Source: Candidatus Nitrospira nitrosa
GTDB taxonomy: Bacteria; Nitrospirota; Nitrospiria; Nitrospirales; Nitrospiraceae
Length of the DNA stretch: 64,000 nucleotides
Direction of reading: 5' to 3'
Assembly (NCBI RefSeq): GCF_001458735.1
Contig: NZ_CZQA01000001.1
Span: forward strand, 558,001-622,000
Shown here: positions 48,039 through 57,437 of the stretch, piece by piece
How positions within the stretch are numbered: position 1 is the stretch's first letter
Layout of the letters: each line of letters starts with the position of its first letter
Notes under the pieces: generated by a model
Seen by the model: the letters and a program-made list of their open reading frames with translations, nothing else
Told to the model about the DNA's origin: nothing
The model's database searches: none
Made by a program: the position numbers and the translations under genes

Positions 48039-48268
48039 ACCCTCCGCCTCCTTTGAGTAGACAGAACACACACCAATAGCAGCTTGATAGCGGCACCATA
48101 GCGAGTCCGCCGAACCGGGTCAAGACAATCCACCCACAAGGACCCCGCGAGTACCAGCTTGGTACTGAGTACTTAGGAGAATCCCAGCTTAGACATTCAA
48201 GATGTGATGCCGTAAGCGGTCAGCTTAACGCTGATTGGTTTACATTCGGCCGGAGGGTTCAAATAAAA

Positions 48269-48295
48269 TGGCCCAGGGGGGATTCCCCTGGGCCA
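48269..48295 (-). terminator. Rho-independent terminator of the TolC/ABC/HlyD operon
   Basis: Strong hairpin TGGCCCAGGGG ... CCCCTGGGCCA with a 5-base loop. Read leftward it is followed by TTTTATTT, fitting an end for the operon whose last gene stops 36 bases earlier. Confidence 0.8.
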
Positions 48296-48331
48296 TTGTT
48301 CTGAGGATCTCGGCGCCGCGGCGCCATTCAC

Positions 48332-49777
48332 TTACTTAGCGGCAGGCGCTGCCACCTTCGGCGCGAACATTTCAAACAGACTCGGCTCACGCTCCAGATA
48401 GTCAGGTGGGAAGAAGTTGAATCGCCGCCACAGTTCGTACCAGAGCGGAACACGATTCATAACCACCCAACCCAGCACCTTTGTTCCCTGTCTTACCTGA
48501 GTTTGCTCAGGCCATGGCTGAGGATCATCTGGGTCCGGAACCACCCAGAATCGGTAGTTCCCCTTACCATCATCGATCTGGTCAACTACCTTGATGATAC
48601 CTCCACGGGTGCCAGCCATTAGGCCGGGCCAAGCCGGCAGCGGAATAGCCGGAACCCCGAAGAAGAGAATCCGCACCTTGCGCCCAGGCTTCAGGAGGGG
48701 AGAATCCAACCCTTCAGCCTTCATTTCAATAGCTGGATCGGCAGCGAGGGGAGAGATGGTGACCAAATTATCTCCCTGCTTGACCGTCTCATTGATACCA
48801 ACTTTCGCCATCTTGACGACCGTGCCGTCCATAGGGGCAAAAAGTTTTGCTGCTTCAATACGTTGCTGAACCCCCTGTTGCCGATAAGCGATGTCCGCCA
48901 ACGATTCGGTGGCCTTCGCAGCTTCAGCAACCGCGGAATCGCGGGATGCGATTGCATCCATCAGCCTCTGATTGACATCCGCTGAGACTTGATCACGACC
49001 AAAGCTCAGCGATGACCTGGCCTGCTCGGCACCCTGCAAACTCGCCTGTGCCGCCTGCAAGCCTGCCTTGGTCCCGATCTCGGTTTGGATCGTCAACTCA
49101 AGTTCACGTTGGGAGACCAACCCTTCCCGAACTAGTTGCCGATGGCGGTCGACATTGAGTTGGGCTGTGTGCACGTCGATCTTGTACTGCTCAACCTTCT
49201 GTTGAGCCTCACGCACTTTATTGTCTGCCTCAACAACCCGCGCCTCTGCTGAAGGAACAGCCGCCTGGACCAGTTTCTTCATCTCACCGATTCGCCGGTT
49301 CAACTGGTCTGCCCTGGCCAATGCCGCTTGCTTGGTTTTCTCCAAGGCGTCTTTTCTCTGCTCAAACAGAGGAAGGATCTCTGGGGCCATAAAGGTCGGA
49401 TCGTAATCTTCAAGCTCACCGACAAGTTCACCCTTTTTAACCTTCACACCTTCATAAATGTGCCACGCCTTGATCCGACCAGTAATTCGAGATTCAATAT
49501 TCTGGGGCCGATCATAGGGAGTATAGGCAGAAACCTTGCCGGACGCTTGAATCGTTTGTGTCCAGGGGACAAACTCAAGGACGATCAGAAACAAGAGAAG
49601 AATTGTGAGAATGGCACGGGACGCCGTAAACATCCCTCGTGGTATTTGCACAGCCTGCCAGCAAGGCAACTTTGCCAATGCCGGGCCTTGTTCAATCGTG
49701 ATCGCTGCCAAGCCGACCCCTCGTTGAACCAGCGCACGCTCACCGTTACTATCATGACCGCTACCTAGGCTAGCCAT
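48332..49777 (-). CDS. HlyD-type membrane fusion (periplasmic adaptor) protein
   Basis: 481 residues. One N-terminal membrane helix (AILTILLLFLIVLEFVPW), a lipoyl/barrel half (SGKVSAYTPYDRPQNIESRITGRIKAW, VKVKKGELVGELEDYDP), a long coiled-coil hairpin (about 130-305) and the return barrel (FAPMDGTVVKMAKVGINETVKQGDNLVTI). This bridges an inner-membrane exporter to an outer-membrane TolC channel. It lies 48 bases after the ABC gene, the last of five genes in the same direction. GGAGG precedes the ATG. The C-terminal WYELWRRFNFFPPDY tail is distinctive. Confidence 0.88.
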   Translation of the reverse strand: MASLGSGHDSNGERALVQRGVGLAAITIEQGPALAKLPCWQAVQIPRGMFTASRAILTILLLFLIVLEFVPWTQTIQASGKVSAYTPYDRPQNIESRITGRIKAWHIYEGVKVKKGELVGELEDYDPTFMAPEILPLFEQRKDALEKTKQAALARADQLNRRIGEMKKLVQAAVPSAEARVVEADNKVREAQQKVEQYKIDVHTAQLNVDRHRQLVREGLVSQRELELTIQTEIGTKAGLQAAQASLQGAEQARSSLSFGRDQVSADVNQRLMDAIASRDSAVAEAAKATESLADIAYRQQGVQQRIEAAKLFAPMDGTVVKMAKVGINETVKQGDNLVTISPLAADPAIEMKAEGLDSPLLKPGRKVRILFFGVPAIPLPAWPGLMAGTRGGIIKVVDQIDDGKGNYRFWVVPDPDDPQPWPEQTQVRQGTKVLGWVVMNRVPLWYELWRRFNFFPPDYLEREPSLFEMFAPKVAAPAAK

Positions 49778-49825
49778 GGAGCCTCCATAATAAAAGTACT
49801 GCTATGAATTGGCCGTTTCAACGAC

Positions 49826-51502
49826 TTACGCATGAGTATGATGCAACATGATACGACGATCAGCATGATCCGTTAGATTTGGATCGGTCGACACAAAGAT
49901 GACCGACCAGGCCTCATCCTTCGAGCAAAGCCGTCGTAAAATGCGCTCGCGCAATGATGGCTCAAGCGAATGAATCAGCCCATCAAACACGAGCACTTGT
50001 GGACGACCGAGAATCGCACGGGCCAGAAGAATCTGGACCACGTGAGTTGGCGACAACGACTCTCCGAGTGCGGAGACCTCGGACTTCACCCCGCGCGGAA
50101 GGCCTTCGATATCTTCTTCCAACTCCGTGAAGCGGAGCGCCCAGTTCAGGTCATCATAGGTGACATAGGACCGGCCCATTACAATATTTTCTTCGATCGT
50201 GCCCTTAACGAGGGACAACTGCGAGTCAATCATGACACTGCGGCACTGATTGATCGCGCTGGGATCGATGTAGCGAAGATCGACACCATTATATTGCACA
50301 ACGCCACCGGTCGGTACTTCAAGTCCACCAAGCACTCTTGCCAATGCCGTTTTTGCAGCCGTGGTTTTAGCATATATCCCAAGCTTCTCACCGGGGGCCA
50401 CATCCAGATTGAAGCCATCGAACACCGCCACGCCACTGTGAACCAGACTCACCCCTTTGCAGGTCACGCGAACCCCTTGACCGAGGTGCTTTGGCAGAGC
50501 CACGGTAGATTCGGTGGACACGTAATCCTGTTCCTGACTAAACACCTCATCAAGGTGGGTCAGCGAAGCAAAGAAATAATAGATGTACCCCATGTTCTTG
50601 ATCAGCGAGTCAAAATTGATGACCAGGGCGCTGACGACCGCTTGAACTGCGACCAGCTGCCCAAGTGTCAATTGTCCTGAGGCCAAGAGCGAGCCTGAGA
50701 TGGAGAGCGCACCGGCCTGTGCAATGGCTTGTCCGGCCACAGACCCGATATACTGCCGCACCAACACGGCAAACCGTGCTTTCCGAGCTTCGACATACCT
50801 GGTGACCAATGCATCGGTCTTCTGGATAAGAAACGGCTTACTGTCGGTCGCCTTTAACTGTAAGGCGTTCCGCGAAACCTCTTGGATGAAATTGAAGACA
50901 TCGTACTTGGCGTGAGACATCTCCAGGGTTCTTTTCAGCGCACCACGGGAGAGTACGAAGAACGTGATCGCAAAGCCAGTCATGAGCATGAGGTTGTAAA
51001 TGAGAAAATAGGGATGGTACACGACCAGCATGATCATCCCGACCGATCCGCCGACCACCACGTTCAACAGATCGATGAGCAGCGTTGAAAGCGCCCGCTG
51101 CATGAAGACCGTTTCGATAAAGTAGTTCGCAATTTCCGGACGGGCTCCTTTAAATCGATTACGAGGCAATGCCTCAACCATCGCCACCGCCACGCGGGCA
51201 AAGATTCTGCGCTGGACGACGTCCACGGCATAAAAATGAAAGGTCTTGAACAGACCGACGAACAGGAGCACCGAGAACATCACCGCCGTCAAGGTATAAA
51301 TCATGACCGGTTGAATCGCATAGGAAAAGGTGCTGACCAATTCCTGTACGGTCAACGGAATGATAAGGGAGAAAAAGCCAACCGCAAGGGCGTAGGAGAA
51401 AAGAAGACTCATAATCTTTTTCTCAGCCCGGATGGCCACGGACAACTGTTTCATCAGCGCTTCGAACAGGCCCCTATAACCTTCGCCCTGAGGTTCCTTC
51501 AT
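49826..51502 (-). CDS. Type I exporter-like ABC protein with degenerate ATPase domain
   Basis: About 558 residues: six membrane helices (30-310) and a C-terminal nucleotide-binding domain. Walker A reads AKTTAAKT instead of GxxGxGK[ST] (glycines lost, Lys-Thr kept), the signature LSGGQ is LSPTH, the Walker B Glu is Gly (QVLVFDG) and the H-loop His is replaced (FVSTD). Hydrolysis of ATP is therefore very unlikely. No peptidase or CLD domain at the N-terminus. It sits between three TolC genes and the HlyD gene, where a type I secretion ATPase would be expected. It may act as a passive scaffold or need another ATPase. Confidence 0.88.
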   Translation of the reverse strand: MKEPQGEGYRGLFEALMKQLSVAIRAEKKIMSLLFSYALAVGFFSLIIPLTVQELVSTFSYAIQPVMIYTLTAVMFSVLLFVGLFKTFHFYAVDVVQRRIFARVAVAMVEALPRNRFKGARPEIANYFIETVFMQRALSTLLIDLLNVVVGGSVGMIMLVVYHPYFLIYNLMLMTGFAITFFVLSRGALKRTLEMSHAKYDVFNFIQEVSRNALQLKATDSKPFLIQKTDALVTRYVEARKARFAVLVRQYIGSVAGQAIAQAGALSISGSLLASGQLTLGQLVAVQAVVSALVINFDSLIKNMGYIYYFFASLTHLDEVFSQEQDYVSTESTVALPKHLGQGVRVTCKGVSLVHSGVAVFDGFNLDVAPGEKLGIYAKTTAAKTALARVLGGLEVPTGGVVQYNGVDLRYIDPSAINQCRSVMIDSQLSLVKGTIEENIVMGRSYVTYDDLNWALRFTELEEDIEGLPRGVKSEVSALGESLSPTHVVQILLARAILGRPQVLVFDGLIHSLEPSLRERILRRLCSKDEAWSVIFVSTDPNLTDHADRRIMLHHTHA

Positions 51503-51643
51503 GAGCACCCCCAGTAATATGTCAGAATGTGAATCATCGGCCCCTTTCCAACTCTTGTATACAACGAAAAATACGCTATTCTTTGATCAAGATCCAAGCC
51601 CACCAAATGAACTATGTGGTACTACCAGCTACATCAGGAGTCA

Positions 51644-53242
51644 TTAATCACGTCCTGGGAGTTTTCGTCCGGATGAACCCGCTGATTGTACCTGGTCCCC
51701 ATACTTGGCAAGCACACTGTCCGCCAAAGGCTTCGACAAGGCTCCTCTCGCCCAGAGCATCCCTCCACGAGCCACGGCATAGTCGGCTTGTGCACGGTAG
51801 AGCTCGTACGCTGCCTGAACCACCGCACGCTCTCGCAGGTTGACGAAGAGCACGCTCGTGGCTCCCATGTTAAATCTCGCTCGTTCGCCTTCTTCCAAGG
51901 TCTTGGCCAAGCGCAACGCCTCGGTCGAAGCTTTGACTCGATCTCTGGCCCTCACGATGGCCGAGAGCCAGTTATCTACCTCGATCTGAACCTGGCGCTC
52001 GGTGTAGGCCTGCTTATATGCCAACCGTGTCTGCTCTGCCTCTGCATGAAGAACTTTCCCTCTCGCAGCGCGATTGAACAACGGCATGCTGAACAGAGCA
52101 GCCATTCGATAGCCGATCCCACCGACCCAATAGATGGCGCCGATCGCCGGACCACCTTCAACTGAGAGCTTTGGAAGGAGGCCATTCTTGGCGAGTTTCA
52201 GGTCGATATTGTTCAACCTAGCTTCAATGTAGAGATCGCGCACTTCCGGACGATCCTCCGCAGCTTCCACCTTAAAGGCCGCGACATCCTCTTCGCTTGG
52301 TAATGGCGTTTCACCCTGAAACTCTGGAGCCCATTCCGGTCTCGGCGTCACCGGTTCCCCGTTTTCCCAGAGAAAGAGGGCGAGTTTATATTGTTCGTAC
52401 TCCACCTTCCGTTGCGCGGCAATGGCAGCCTCACGACGCCGCTGAACTTCTTCCCGGGCTTCGACCACGTCGATCGGAGCGACCGCGCCGGATTTGGCTC
52501 GGCCCTCCACCATACGATAGCGTTCCTCCGCGATCGCCAGCGTACGCTTAACCACATCGGCCTGCTTGACGACAACCTGCCAATCCCAGTATTGAACCGC
52601 CCCAGCAAGATAAAGATCCTGCCGTTTCTGAGCCACCTTCACTTCCGCTTGTGGTCCAGCGAGTTCCGCCTGCTGGAGCTGGGCATACTCTTCATTAATC
52701 ATGAACCCCCGCAGGAGATTAATCTTTCCACCGACTATGCCCATTTGCTGCGGATAGAACAGTTGAAAGTCTTGAGGGACCGCAATCGCAGGACTCTGGA
52801 CGTTGCGTTCATCGATAATAGGGTAGGCTCTGTTCCCCTCAAGCGTTGCACGATCGCCGAAAACGTTACGGATGCCGCCGAAGAGCTCCAAGCCCCAGGG
52901 GTGCCCGATCTTGAGCATGGTATCGACATAGCCAGCACTTAGGCTATTCAGACCTGTCGCATTCGTCAGATTGTAGGTTTGATACCGATCGTACTCGATT
53001 TCGTTTCGAAATTTCGGCTCCCAGGCACCTAGTGCTTTGAGAATTTTTGCCCGAGCCTGCGCTCGCTCCAGTCCGACGGCCCTGAGCAGCGGATGAGTCA
53101 ACTCAATCCTGGCCAATACCTCTTCAATGGTCAGGGGAGCGGTGCGAGTTGACTGAGCCTGCATGACACTGGAGTCGAGCACCGGTTCCCCCAGTGCGAT
53201 CGCCGGCACCATCATCAACGAGAACAACAAGAGAAAGATCAA
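51644..53242 (-). CDS. TolC-family outer-membrane efflux protein, third of three
   Basis: 532 residues beginning at TTG, preceded by the AAAGGAGCATC leader shared by all three copies. Signal peptide FLLLFSLMMVPAIALG, then QAQSTRTAPLTIEEVLARIELTHPLL, ERAQARAKILKALGAW, two OEP repeats with helical hairpins and RFNMGATSVLFVNLRERAVV near the end. TolC proteins are trimeric outer-membrane channel-tunnels. It is the most divergent of the three in its front barrel part (ATGLNSLSAGYVDTMLKIGH) and stands 140 bases before the ABC gene. Confidence 0.9.
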   Translation of the reverse strand: MIFLLLFSLMMVPAIALGEPVLDSSVMQAQSTRTAPLTIEEVLARIELTHPLLRAVGLERAQARAKILKALGAWEPKFRNEIEYDRYQTYNLTNATGLNSLSAGYVDTMLKIGHPWGLELFGGIRNVFGDRATLEGNRAYPIIDERNVQSPAIAVPQDFQLFYPQQMGIVGGKINLLRGFMINEEYAQLQQAELAGPQAEVKVAQKRQDLYLAGAVQYWDWQVVVKQADVVKRTLAIAEERYRMVEGRAKSGAVAPIDVVEAREEVQRRREAAIAAQRKVEYEQYKLALFLWENGEPVTPRPEWAPEFQGETPLPSEEDVAAFKVEAAEDRPEVRDLYIEARLNNIDLKLAKNGLLPKLSVEGGPAIGAIYWVGGIGYRMAALFSMPLFNRAARGKVLHAEAEQTRLAYKQAYTERQVQIEVDNWLSAIVRARDRVKASTEALRLAKTLEEGERARFNMGATSVLFVNLRERAVVQAAYELYRAQADYAVARGGMLWARGALSKPLADSVLAKYGDQVQSAGSSGRKLPGRD

Positions 53243-53267
53243 GGAATGATGCTCCTTTGTTGCGGAA

Positions 53268-54815
53268 TTAATCGCGGCCCGGTTGTTTAAAGCCGTTCAT
53301 GCCCGCCGCTGTCAACGGGTTCCCGTACTTGGCCAACTCGCTTTCTGGCCAAGGCCTTGCCAAGGCGCCCCTCGCCCACAACATGCCTCCACGCGCCACG
53401 GCGTAGTCGGCCTGCGCCCGATACAGCTGGTACGCATGCTGAACGACGTTGCGCTCACGGAGGTTCACGAACAGGACGGTGCTTGCGCCCATATTGAACC
53501 TGGTCCGCTCGCCCTCCTCCAGCGTCTTGGCTAATCGTAAGGCCTCCGTCGCCGCCTTCACCCGGTCTCTCGCACGCACTTGAGCTGAGAGCCAGTTATC
53601 CACGTCGATGCTGACTTGTTGCTCGGTGTACAGCTGCTTGAAGGCCAGTTGCTGCTGGTCCGCCTCCGCGTACAGGACCTTCCCCCGCCCTTCCCGCTGG
53701 AAGATCGGCACTGCAAACCACGATTCGACCCGATACCCGACTCCCACATTCCAGTCCGCGCTGGCCTCCATTTGCCCCCCCTTAAAATCAAACTTCGGGA
53801 GCAGGTAGTTCTTCGCAAGTTTAATATCGATATTATTCTTCTTGGCTTCGATGTAGAGGTCCCGCACCTCTGGGCGCACTTCCTTTGCCTCCACTTTATA
53901 GGCTGCAATCTCCTCGTTGGTCGGAAGCGGTGTTTCGCCCTGAAATTCCGGCGCCCATTCTGGTTGCGGGGTCACCGGCTCGCCGTTCTCCCAGAGAAAA
54001 AGAGACAGCTTGTACTGCTCATACTCCACCTTCCGTTGCGCGGCGATGGCAGCCTCTCGCCGAACCTGAACCTCTTTGTTGGCCTCAATGACATCGAGCG
54101 GCGAGGACAACCCCCTCTTCGCCTGCCCCTCGATCTGCGTGAACCGTTCTTCGGCCACAGCCAGGGTGCGCTTCACGATATCAGCTTGCTTAACGGCAAC
54201 TTGCCAATCCCAGTACTGTACGGCCCCGGCGAGGTAGAGGTCTTGCCGCTTCTGCGCCACCGCGATCTCAGCCTGCGGCCCCGCGAGTTCGGCCTTCTGA
54301 AAGTCGGCGTACTCTTCGTTCATCATGAATCCTCGCAGCAGGTGAGCCTCCCCCCCGATGAGCATTTGTTGGTTATGATAGAAGAGCAGTCCATCATTCG
54401 GGATGAGTGCATGGGCGCCTTGGTTGATGCGATCCCCAAACCCGTTGCGGATCCCGCCGTTGAGCCTGAAGCCCCAAGGATGTCCCATCTCGATCGTGCT
54501 GTCGTTATATCCCCCCGTCGTCGTATTGATGAAGGCCAGAAAGTTCCACGACTGATAGCGATCGACCTCTGTCCTGTTCTGAAACTTTGGTTCCCAGGCC
54601 CCGAGCGCCTTGAGGATTTTTGCCCGGGCCTGCATCCGTTCAACGCCGGTCGCCCGAAGGAGCGGATGGGTCAACTCAATACGTGCGAGCACTTCGCTGA
54701 TGGTCAGAAGCTCGGTGCGGACAGACTGCGCCTTCAACGCGCTAGAATCGTGCACCGGTGCCGCCAGGGTCGTCACGGGAAGCAAGATCAGAATCACGAG
54801 TAAGAGAGCGGTCAT
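53268..54815 (-). CDS. TolC-family outer-membrane efflux protein, second of three
   Basis: 515 residues, signal peptide LLLVILILLPVTTLA, then ALKAQSVRTELLTISEVLAR and the same TolC architecture as its neighbours: LAGAVQYWDWQVAVKQAD, GERTRFNMGASTVLFVNLRER and the C-terminal YGNPLTAAGMNGFKQPGRD, identical at its last residues to the first copy. AAGGAGCATC lies before the ATG. The tandem copies clearly arose by duplication in place. Confidence 0.9.
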   Translation of the reverse strand: MTALLLVILILLPVTTLAAPVHDSSALKAQSVRTELLTISEVLARIELTHPLLRATGVERMQARAKILKALGAWEPKFQNRTEVDRYQSWNFLAFINTTTGGYNDSTIEMGHPWGFRLNGGIRNGFGDRINQGAHALIPNDGLLFYHNQQMLIGGEAHLLRGFMMNEEYADFQKAELAGPQAEIAVAQKRQDLYLAGAVQYWDWQVAVKQADIVKRTLAVAEERFTQIEGQAKRGLSSPLDVIEANKEVQVRREAAIAAQRKVEYEQYKLSLFLWENGEPVTPQPEWAPEFQGETPLPTNEEIAAYKVEAKEVRPEVRDLYIEAKKNNIDIKLAKNYLLPKFDFKGGQMEASADWNVGVGYRVESWFAVPIFQREGRGKVLYAEADQQQLAFKQLYTEQQVSIDVDNWLSAQVRARDRVKAATEALRLAKTLEEGERTRFNMGASTVLFVNLRERNVVQHAYQLYRAQADYAVARGGMLWARGALARPWPESELAKYGNPLTAAGMNGFKQPGRD

Positions 54816-54838
54816 CGACAGATGCTCCTTGTGCAGGA

Positions 54839-56392
54839 TTAATCGCGACCCGGTTGTTTGAAGCCGTTCATGCCCGCTGCCGTCAGCGGGTTTCCGTACT
54901 TAGCCAACTCGCTTTCGGGCCACGGCTTGGACAGCAGCCCTCGAGCCCACAGCATCCCTCCACGCGCCACGGCGTAGTCAGCCTGCGCCCGATACAGCTG
55001 GTACGCCTGCTCCACCACGTGGCGTTCACGGAGGTTGACAAAGAGGACGGTGGTCGCGCCCATATTGAATCGGGTCCGTTCGCCTTCTTCCAGCGTCTTC
55101 GCCAACCGCAGCGCTTCCGTCGCCGCGGTTACCCGATCTCTGGCGCGCACTTGGGCCGAGAGCCAGTTGTCCACGTCAAAGGTGACTTGTTGCTCGGTGT
55201 ACAGTTGTTTCAACGCCAATTGTTGCTGAGCCACTTCAGCGGCCATGACCTTCCCGCGCGCTTCTCGCTGGAACAGCGGCATCTCGGTGTGCAGGCCGAC
55301 CCGATACCCGAGTCCCACCAACCAGTCCGCAGCGCCCGGGGTCGGCCCCCCCTCTAGATCTAACGTCGGGAGCAGCTTGTTCTTGGCAAGCTTCATATCG
55401 ATGTTGTTGAGCTTAGCTTCGACGTAGAGGTCTCGCACTTCCGGCCGCACTTCTTTCGCCTCTGTTTTATAGCCTGCGACCTCCGCGTTGGTCGGGAGCG
55501 GCGTTTCCCCCTGGAATTCAGGTGCCCATTCCCGTCGGGGCGTCACCGGCTCCCCATTCTCCCAGAGGAAGAGGGACAGTTTGTACTGCTCATACTCCAC
55601 CTTGCGTTGCGCGGCGATGGCGGCCTCTCGTCGAACCTGAACCTCTTGGTTCGCCTCAATAGCATCGAGCGGCGCAACCCTCCCGCCCTTCGCCAACCCT
55701 TCGATCTGGACTAAGCGCTCTTCAGCCACAGCTTGTGCACGCTTCACGACATCAGCTTGCTTAACCGCAACCTGCCAATCCCAGTACTGCACGGCTCCAG
55801 CCAAGTAAAGGTCTTGCCGTTTCTGCGCCACCTTGATCTCTGCTTGCGGGCCCGCGAGCTCGGCCCTTTGAAATTCGGCGTTCTCTTCGTTGACCATGAA
55901 GTCTCGTAGGAAATGGATGGTCCCACTGTAGTAGAAGTGTTGCTTATGATAGGCAGCGCGCAGATCAGGGGGTAGGGCAATACGGTTGATACTTTCGCTA
56001 TCCCCGAAGCCGCTGCGAAGTCCACCGGCAACCCTGAAGCCCCAAGGATGCCCGACCTCGACCGTGCTGTCGGCATATCCAATCGTATGTTGATTTGGAA
56101 TGTCGAACGCCGTCGTAATGTTCCAGTTAGTATAACGCTCGAACTGTGTATAGTTCTTGACCTGCGGCTCCCAGGCCCCGAGCGCCTTGAGGATTTTTGC
56201 CCGGGCCTTCGTGCGCTCGGCTCCCGTGGCCTGAAGCAGGGGATGGGTCAACTCAATACGCGCCAGCACTTCCCCTATGCTCAGAGGTTCGGTGCGTGTC
56301 GACTGTGCCTGCACCGTGCGGGAGTCGATCACCGGCTCCGCTATCGCGGTCATTGGCAGAATTACGACCAGAGCCAACACCAGTGCGACCAT
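54839..56392 (-). CDS. TolC-family outer-membrane efflux protein, first of three
   Basis: 517 residues from the ATG after AGAGGAG (the frame opens 23 codons earlier without a site). Signal peptide ALVLALVVILPMTAIA, then VQAQSTRTEPLSIGEVLAR. Closely similar to the second copy, including the tail AGMNGFKQPGRD. It is the first gene after the divergent regulator and so heads the operon tolC-tolC-tolC-ABC-hlyD. Confidence 0.9.
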   Translation of the reverse strand: MVALVLALVVILPMTAIAEPVIDSRTVQAQSTRTEPLSIGEVLARIELTHPLLQATGAERTKARAKILKALGAWEPQVKNYTQFERYTNWNITTAFDIPNQHTIGYADSTVEVGHPWGFRVAGGLRSGFGDSESINRIALPPDLRAAYHKQHFYYSGTIHFLRDFMVNEENAEFQRAELAGPQAEIKVAQKRQDLYLAGAVQYWDWQVAVKQADVVKRAQAVAEERLVQIEGLAKGGRVAPLDAIEANQEVQVRREAAIAAQRKVEYEQYKLSLFLWENGEPVTPRREWAPEFQGETPLPTNAEVAGYKTEAKEVRPEVRDLYVEAKLNNIDMKLAKNKLLPTLDLEGGPTPGAADWLVGLGYRVGLHTEMPLFQREARGKVMAAEVAQQQLALKQLYTEQQVTFDVDNWLSAQVRARDRVTAATEALRLAKTLEEGERTRFNMGATTVLFVNLRERHVVEQAYQLYRAQADYAVARGGMLWARGLLSKPWPESELAKYGNPLTAAGMNGFKQPGRD

Positions 56393-56484
56393 GTGGGATG
56401 CTCCTCTCGTATACATTCGGCGGACGGCGCACACACTAGCAACCTCCCCTTCTTTTTTCAAAATAGATAAAACAGATTTGTGGT

Positions 56485-56499
56485 ATCGATTAATCCGAT
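56485..56499. promoter_or_regulatory. LysR-type operator (T-N11-A) between regulator and TolC operon
   Basis: ATCGATTAATCCGAT fits the ATC-N9-GAT/T-N11-A box of LysR regulators. A -10-like TATAGT (56502-56507) for the regulator gene follows immediately, so the regulator probably controls itself and the divergent operon. Confidence 0.55.
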
Positions 56500-56537
56500 G
56501 GTATAGTACCGCCGCTCTCCCAAGAGCTACGGGCCAT

Positions 56538-57437
56538 ATGGATTGGTTAAACTACCATCACTTGTTATATTTCTGGTCCGTTGCCAAACACGGGACCGTA
56601 ACTAAAGCCTGCGAAGAACTCCGCCTCGCTCAACCCACGATTAGCGGGCAGATCCATCTGTTAGAAGCGACCTTGGGCGAAAAGTTGTTCATTCGAACAG
56701 GCCGGCGTCTGGTGCTGACGGAGATGGGTCAGCTCGTGTTCAAGTACGCGGAGGACATCTTCGCGACCGGGCAAGAGCTGATGAATACCGTGAGAGGGCA
56801 GGAGAACGGACAGCCGACACGTCTGGTCGTGGGCATTGCCAACGCCGTTCCTAAACCGCTCGCCACCCAACTGCTCAAGTCCGCTCTCAGGCTCTATAAG
56901 CCGACACGCTTAATCTGCCAAGAGGATAACCTGCACCAGCTTCTGACCGATCTGGCCGCTCATCGTTCCGATTTGGTGATCGCTGATACTCCGGCTCCAC
57001 CTGGAGTAAAGGCACATGCGTACAACCACCCGTTGGGCGAATCGGGCGTCACGCTGTTCGCCACGGCAAGACTGGCTGCCCAGTATCGTCGAGACTTTCC
57101 CTACTCACTCCGCAATGCCCCGCTCCTCCTCCCCACCTCGAGTGCGGTGCTTCGTCGCTTGATGGACCAATGGATGGTGAACCACGGCGTCCACCCCACC
57201 GTGGTGGGCGAGTTTGATGACAGTGCGACTCTCAAAGCCTTCGGCCAGGATGGCCATGGGATCTTCCCCGGCGCCACTGTGATCGAAAAGGAGATCTGTC
57301 GCCAATACCAGGTGCAGGTGGTTGGACAGCTGGACGGACTCATCCAACATTTCTACGCGATCACCGTGGAACGGAAGCTGAAACACCCCGCTGTGCTTGC
57401 GCTTGTCCGCACCGCCCGACGCGAGTTACTCAACTGA
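56538..57437 (+). CDS. LysR-family regulator, NhaR-like
   Basis: 299 residues. N-terminal winged HTH MDWLNYHHLLYFWSVAKHGT, ACEELRLAQPTISGQIHLLEATLGEKLF, then the substrate-binding domain. The YHHLLYFW...TVTKAC start and the overall pattern are those of NhaR (activator of the Na+/H+ antiporter gene). Divergent from the TolC operon with a 145-base intergenic region containing a LysR-type box; it is likely its regulator. Start chosen at the HTH onset; the open frame extends 87 codons into the TolC gene antisense. Confidence 0.9.
   Translation: MDWLNYHHLLYFWSVAKHGTVTKACEELRLAQPTISGQIHLLEATLGEKLFIRTGRRLVLTEMGQLVFKYAEDIFATGQELMNTVRGQENGQPTRLVVGIANAVPKPLATQLLKSALRLYKPTRLICQEDNLHQLLTDLAAHRSDLVIADTPAPPGVKAHAYNHPLGESGVTLFATARLAAQYRRDFPYSLRNAPLLLPTSSAVLRRLMDQWMVNHGVHPTVVGEFDDSATLKAFGQDGHGIFPGATVIEKEICRQYQVQVVGQLDGLIQHFYAITVERKLKHPAVLALVRTARRELLN

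Follow-up and report, generated by a model that had tools for sequence, protein, structure and literature searches.

How is an operon built like a type I secretion system energised if its ABC exporter lacks the residues of ATP hydrolysis, and why does it carry three TolC genes? Both questions are raised by a locus of a Nitrospira genome, analysed here in a window of 64,000 nucleotides (the whole stretch of DNA that was analysed; all positions are given in it). Five ORFs, TolC3-TolC2-TolC1-ABC-HlyD, occupy the minus strand from 56461 to 48332. Their features, and those of the divergent regulator gene, are given in Table 1.

Table 1. Features of the operon, its regulator gene and its control region, sorted by position in the window
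Feature	Position	Strand	Characteristics
Intrinsic operon terminator	48267..48297	-	13-bp stem, 9 G-C pairs, 5-nt loop, T-rich tail
HlyD-type periplasmic adaptor	48332..49777	-	481 aa; PF13437 29.4 bits, over cut-off
ABC half-exporter, NBD non-catalytic by motifs	49826..51508	-	560 aa; alternative ATG 51502; PF00005 34.9 bits
TolC1 outer-membrane channel	51644..53242	-	532 aa; PF02321; own clade in 26 loci
TolC1-3 cassette, exchanged block	51650..56450	-	100-bp identity profiles vs L040, L051
TolC2 outer-membrane channel	53268..54815	-	515 aa; PF02321
TolC3 outer-membrane channel	54839..56461	-	540 aa from TTG; PF02321; own clade in 26 loci
Divergent control region, conserved	56466..56507	.	intergenic-gap alignment, 23 loci of the 3-TolC clade
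LysR-type regulator, NhaR-like, divergent from operon	56538..57437	+	299 aa; divergent partner conserved

The first-pass annotation described five same-direction genes (three TolC, ABC, HlyD) that run to a terminator and face a NhaR-like LysR gene; the ORFs, the Pfam/NCBIfam scores and the 13-bp stem agree with this layout. The gaps within the operon (23, 25, 135 and 48 bp) contain no convincing terminator. As a start preceding a signal peptide, ATG 56416 or 56392 is likelier for TolC3 than the TTG. The LysR start at 56277 (mechanical ORF 56277-57437) was replaced by 56538. The LysR protein reaches 228.3 bits against the NCBIfam NhaR model NF008284 (cut-off 219) and can be classed as NhaR-like on this score. 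Between the divergent genes, an inverted repeat GATAA-N12-GTATC (56466-56487), a second inverted repeat, ATCGATTAATCCGAT (56485-56499), and a -10-like TATAGT (56502-56507) are conserved in 23 loci of the clade with three TolC genes (3-TolC clade). The flanks of the locus, purE/purK and rsuA/speB/argDC, are the same across Nitrospiraceae. Among the neighbouring ORFs, no candidate substrate gene adjoins the operon, in keeping with what had been noted from the sequence; substrates could be encoded elsewhere. Nor is a gene for a SecA-type ATPase, such as that described in PMC4452313, recognised among these ORFs.

All three protein types are found by general models and missed by those specific to type I secretion. 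The TolC proteins score 78-96 bits against PF02321 (cut-off 22) and fall below the cut-off of TIGR01844. HlyD is below the NCBIfam type_I_hlyD cut-off (TIGR01843, T1SS-specific: 63 vs a cut-off of 209); the HlyD and ABC genes are conserved as neighbours in Nitrospira, in Bacteroidota and in sphingomonads. The proteins of the ABC operon score far below T1SS-specific cut-offs, and the best NCBIfam matches of the ABC protein include LssB/HlyB/NHLM-type permease-ATPases. Its nearest named records come from Nitrospira MAGs (92-99%).

The ABC protein comprises a TMD (about residues 20-335) and an NBD (about 345-557), and the exporter fold formed by both is recognised; the whole-chain alignment to TAP/TmrAB/MsbA has a large rmsd, and the TMD model is of moderate confidence only. 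The NBD fold is kept (model vs TAP1 NBD: Z 25.5, rmsd 2.1 over 223 residues). Its motifs are altered throughout. Walker A reads A380-x-x-T383-x-A385-K386-T387, so that the glycines of GxxGxGKT are gone while K and T are present; the signature at 485-489 is LSPTH instead of LSGGQ; in Walker B (VFDG), D509 is present and G510 stands in place of the catalytic Glu; in the H-loop (STDP), T541 replaces His. The functional NBD required in a T1SS (Walker A, LSGGQ, Walker B D-E, H-loop) is therefore lacking. A sequencing error or a pseudogene is ruled out by the open frames, by the presence of the same motifs in all orthologues read and by the dN/dS of the NBD (0.036).

The ATP sites of an ABC dimer are composite: Walker A/B and the H-loop of one subunit are combined with the signature of the other. 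In the ABC protein of this operon both halves are off, so that a canonical site could not be rebuilt with any partner. The ABC protein is thus very probably devoid of canonical ATP hydrolysis. The motif losses strongly support the initial prediction that this exporter should not hydrolyse ATP, and the trait turns out to be family-wide. The accompanying suggestion, that another ATPase drives the complex, finds no support: no partner NBD is encoded in the neighbourhood, and neither the signature nor the Walker motifs are intact. A heteromer in which an active ABC half-transporter encoded elsewhere supplies hydrolysis, as in TAP/TmrAB-type exporters, appears improbable. It is common for an exporter to have one degenerate site (PMC7756269), and some relatives have tandem ABC pairs (L100, L101, L109), but both members of these pairs are degenerate, leaving no canonical composite site with a partner; an intact partner would still meet the broken signature, and members devoid of NBD exist. 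Nitrospira yielded no family member in which K/D/E/H are intact, and in a similarity search the other ABC proteins of the window's genome (15 contigs) are 21-29% identical to the ABC protein.

The decay of the NBD is older than the 3-TolC operon. Among the genomes compared (mostly MAGs), a homologue is found in 122 of the 147 from Nitrospiraceae, and every homologue of this family whose NBD was read has Gly for the catalytic Glu and has lost the His, in two operon types and in solitary paralogues alike. Most Nitrospiraceae lineages, N. moscoviensis included, carry at the same chromosomal site a HlyD-TolC-ABC operon with a single TolC and a degenerate NBD. The three TolC genes and the altered NBD, whose constant association had been put forward for checking, are therefore not always together: the dead NBD also occurs in single-TolC operons, and the TolC gene was tripled afterwards, within a single clade of Nitrospira. 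A second operon copy is found in L065, L119, L116 and L074-L076, with TolC-ABC facing HlyD and with its own LysR gene (66-67% to that of the window); in this copy, the Walker lysine is Arg.

Outside this family, decay has gone further. In the sister Nitrospirales family (f2), the Walker lysine is lost in L152, L153 and L241-L244. Three f2 species (G298, G496, G290) have no NBD at all, their ORFs of about 337-348 aa lying within an otherwise intact LysR/HlyD/TolC operon; in L150 and L151, the two stretches that were read further, the TMD gene is followed by no NBD remnant or NBD-like frame. Matches were obtained in 42 of 148 Bacteroidota genomes at the threshold used, a few of them covering only part of the model. 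The order ABC-HlyD-TolC is shared by Bacteroidota and sphingomonad plasmids. Most Bacteroidota members have lost Glu or His, and in two (G381, G543) the NBD is missing, frames of 334 and 349 aa being found beside HlyD and TolC. A minority (L199, L200, L201, L209) has intact Walker K, Walker B D-E and H-loop His, with unusual signatures. In sphingomonad members, the Walker lysine and aspartate are lost too, and in L214 the ABC_tran domain is no longer detected by Pfam. On a Sphingopyxis plasmid (L225:6896-9600), the ABC gene is apparently interrupted by an IS3 element.

In a tree of TMDs only, built by a quick method that leaves several deep branches open, the NBD losses of f2 and of Bacteroidota are separate (at least two losses), and the members with intact K/D/E/H lie among Bacteroidota. 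The first-pass annotation held that relatives with an intact ATPase in the same gene would speak against its reading. Such relatives exist in distant Bacteroidota only (about 27% TMD identity), and none was encountered among the Nitrospiraceae read; their distance makes them a means of dating the NBD loss, not a refutation.

Slow, non-canonical hydrolysis through K386, T387 and D509 would be compatible with the presence of K, T and the Walker B Asp in all members of the 3-TolC clade read. It is nevertheless highly improbable, as the catalytic Glu, the H-loop His and the signature are all absent, the lysine is replaced by Arg in the second operon copy and lost in f2 and sphingomonads, the Asp is changed in L101, and the NBD is deleted in five species.

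The NBD of Nitrospira is nonetheless under strong purifying selection. In the 3-TolC clade, its dN/dS is 0.036 vs 0.095 for the TMD. The identity of the NBD minus that of the TMD is +0.20 for the canonical ABC exporters that the window's genome encodes, +0.03 (about equal) in Nitrospirales, -0.15 in sphingomonads and -0.18 in degenerate Bacteroidota. Both measures indicate that, in Nitrospira, the NBD lost catalysis and retained some job. Nucleotide binding may still matter, given that K386 and D509 are retained in the 3-TolC clade, where constraint on the NBD exceeds that on the TMD. In the TMD, Q55, N128, H165, Y238, Q252 and E289 are kept family-wide despite NBD decay; the family-conserved Glu of TM6 at 289 is Gln (Q289) in the window's clade, which makes a simple proton-coupling model weaker there.

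A folded NBD that is strongly constrained without catalytic residues could also mean that the complex is structural or regulatory and not a transporter, i.e. that an ABC-derived scaffold or nucleotide sensor anchors HlyD and TolC or signals the state of the envelope. Solitary degenerate ABC paralogues without HlyD/TolC (L110:7952-12492, L107, L111, L159) have genes for a PAS histidine kinase and for a sigma-54 response regulator immediately behind them, an arrangement in favour of such a role; the solitary dead ABC protein is a possible sensor input to the kinase. For the operon itself, this explanation is considered unlikely, since the members without NBD retain TMD, HlyD and TolC, which suits a conduit rather than an NBD-based sensor, and since the window's clade has tripled its channels.

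The best explanation, held with moderate confidence, is a tripartite trans-envelope export conduit whose inner part derives from a type I secretion-type ABC exporter that has lost ATP hydrolysis. The sequences show the operon, the loss of catalytic motifs, its conservation and the deletion of the NBD in relatives that retain the operon. It is fairly probable that the complex operates as an export conduit. That transport is driven by an ion gradient is a more tentative proposal; the sequences of relatives indicate that the NBD can be dispensed with in them. In the proposed working, a TMD dimer, HlyD and a TolC trimer would form a continuous channel, through which a small molecule would cross under an ion gradient or down its own gradient. 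The folded dead NBD, constrained in Nitrospira, would act as a structural or nucleotide-sensing lid, and the LysR regulator would turn the operon on upon a small-molecule or ionic signal. Precedents exist for transport by the TMD: MsbA devoid of its NBD carries out pH-gradient-dependent ethidium transport in cells and proteoliposomes (PMC4979069), and LmrA-MD is reported as a secondary-active translocator (PMC6155054). Natural members without NBD are what a mechanism of this MsbA/LmrA type predicts.

The tripling of the channels, already pointed out from the sequence, stands: three PF02321 genes are present here, and 26 loci have the full triplet. In the tree of these 26 loci, TolC1, TolC2 and TolC3 are each monophyletic and their order is kept, as expected from a single ancient triplication. 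This monophyly of each position rules out a recent local duplication or an assembly artefact, and the tree gives no sign of concerted evolution, the copies grouping by position and not by genome. The TolC2 model is close to E. coli TolC 1ek9 (Z 28.0, rmsd 4.4 over 391). The barrel of E. coli TolC is made of two plus two strands; in the TolC2 model (53268-54815), the first barrel half has four strands and the second two, and the extra stretch is the variable one. The helical periplasmic part of the TolC proteins is near invariant (dN/dS 0.08-0.11), vs a variable barrel and loop part (0.38-0.41).

The triplet behaves as a unit distinct from its surroundings. In the comparison with L040, identity is about 92-99% in most flanking 100-bp intervals and falls to 55-89% within the triplet, the borders lying at about 56.45 and 51.65 kb. 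L051 gives the inverse profile, in which the triplet is the more similar part. These sharp-edged profiles indicate that the triplet moves as a cassette. Swaps are seen in 14 pairs of loci; a chimeric MAG could mimic a single swap. TolC distances correlate with one another (rho 0.58-0.77), weakly with ABC distances (0.18-0.23) and hardly with those of HlyD, LysR and RsuA, vs 0.83 between ABC and HlyD; these correlations rule out vertical descent as the source of the TolC differences. The swaps would most likely be driven by phage or predator pressure on exposed loops, which commonly underlies patterns of this kind. One MAG has remnants of two tandem TolC triplets (L049:2226-9876) and another a broken fused triplet (L053:7097-9811); they are either recombination intermediates or assembly errors.

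The single triplication, the constant order and the joint exchange would also suit an obligate heterotrimeric TolC, with one subunit per paralogue, instead of three alternative homotrimers. This is distinctly unlikely, as the three classes are told apart by fixed differences at only about 15 of 515 positions and have near-identical periplasmic parts; a literature search by title (titles only) found no heterotrimeric TolC. In the export conduit proposed here, three TolC proteins with near-identical periplasmic parts and differing barrels and loops would give several outer faces to one machine.

A further association concerns DabA. DabA (PF10070) and NuoL-like genes with a LysR gene lie beside the HlyD/TolC/ABC operon in f2 (L150, L151, L240) and on the Sphingobium plasmid pHAL16 (L214), and DabA is also near the operon in the f2 locus L241. 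In the window's genome, the operon and the DabA/NuoL-type genes are apart. The inorganic-carbon transporter of DabA/NuoL type is thought to be cation-driven. Adjacency in two phyla may reflect a link to inorganic-carbon or cation transport/homeostasis. A search of the open-licence literature for DabA/DabB with LysR found nothing.

ABC transporters are defined by ATP hydrolysis. The debate on whether their membrane domains can be stand-alone transporters has drawn on engineered, truncated forms of MsbA and LmrA. Evolution has apparently repeated this truncation in operons that keep HlyD and TolC, so that natural proteins allow a direct test. In a key nitrifier, the cassette of three TolC genes is a clear case of outer-membrane channels that evolve and are swapped like surface antigens.

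Several known systems share parts with the one described here. EmrAB-TolC and RND efflux pumps combine a HlyD-type adaptor and TolC with non-ATP energy and a local regulator; their inner-membrane part is MFS or RND, whereas it is ABC-derived here. T1SSs (HlyB-HlyD-TolC) have the same operon composition, i.e. an ABC half-exporter, a HlyD-type adaptor and a TolC channel, the latter two being recognised in the window. The system differs from them by the absence of catalytic ATPase motifs, by three TolC genes and by the lack of an adjoining substrate gene; it is kept apart from type I secretion systems, as the active ATPase that defines them was looked for in the motifs and is lacking. TAP, TmrAB and TM287/288 also have degenerate NBD motifs and are among the closest solved folds, but they keep one canonical site, whereas here the motifs of the sole subunit are all off and relatives drop the NBD. 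SecA_DEAD/HlyD/OEP loci, reported from Nitrospirae too, likewise contain T1SS-like parts without an active ABC ATPase (PMC4452313); they encode a SecA-type ATPase and no ABC transporter, whereas the operon of the window is ABC-derived and has no SecA-like neighbour recognised. No description of degenerate-NBD exporters with HlyD/TolC was found in the open-licence literature; an earlier description is possible. MsbA-MD and LmrA-MD share with the NBD-less relatives an exporter TMD without NBD, for which ion-gradient-dependent drug transport is reported (PMC4979069, PMC6155054); they are laboratory truncations of ATP-driven pumps, whereas the NBD-less relatives arose in nature, more than once, and are linked to HlyD and TolC. 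On its gene content and motifs, the system can be described as a putative tripartite exporter whose inner-membrane part is derived from an ABC exporter and would not hydrolyse ATP. Tentatively, it would belong to natural secondary (ion- or substrate-gradient-driven) tripartite exporters that arose from ABC exporters by loss of the ATPase, with the whole NBD lost at least twice, in at least three phyla, and to which Nitrospira added TolC surface variants in the form of a mobile cassette of three.
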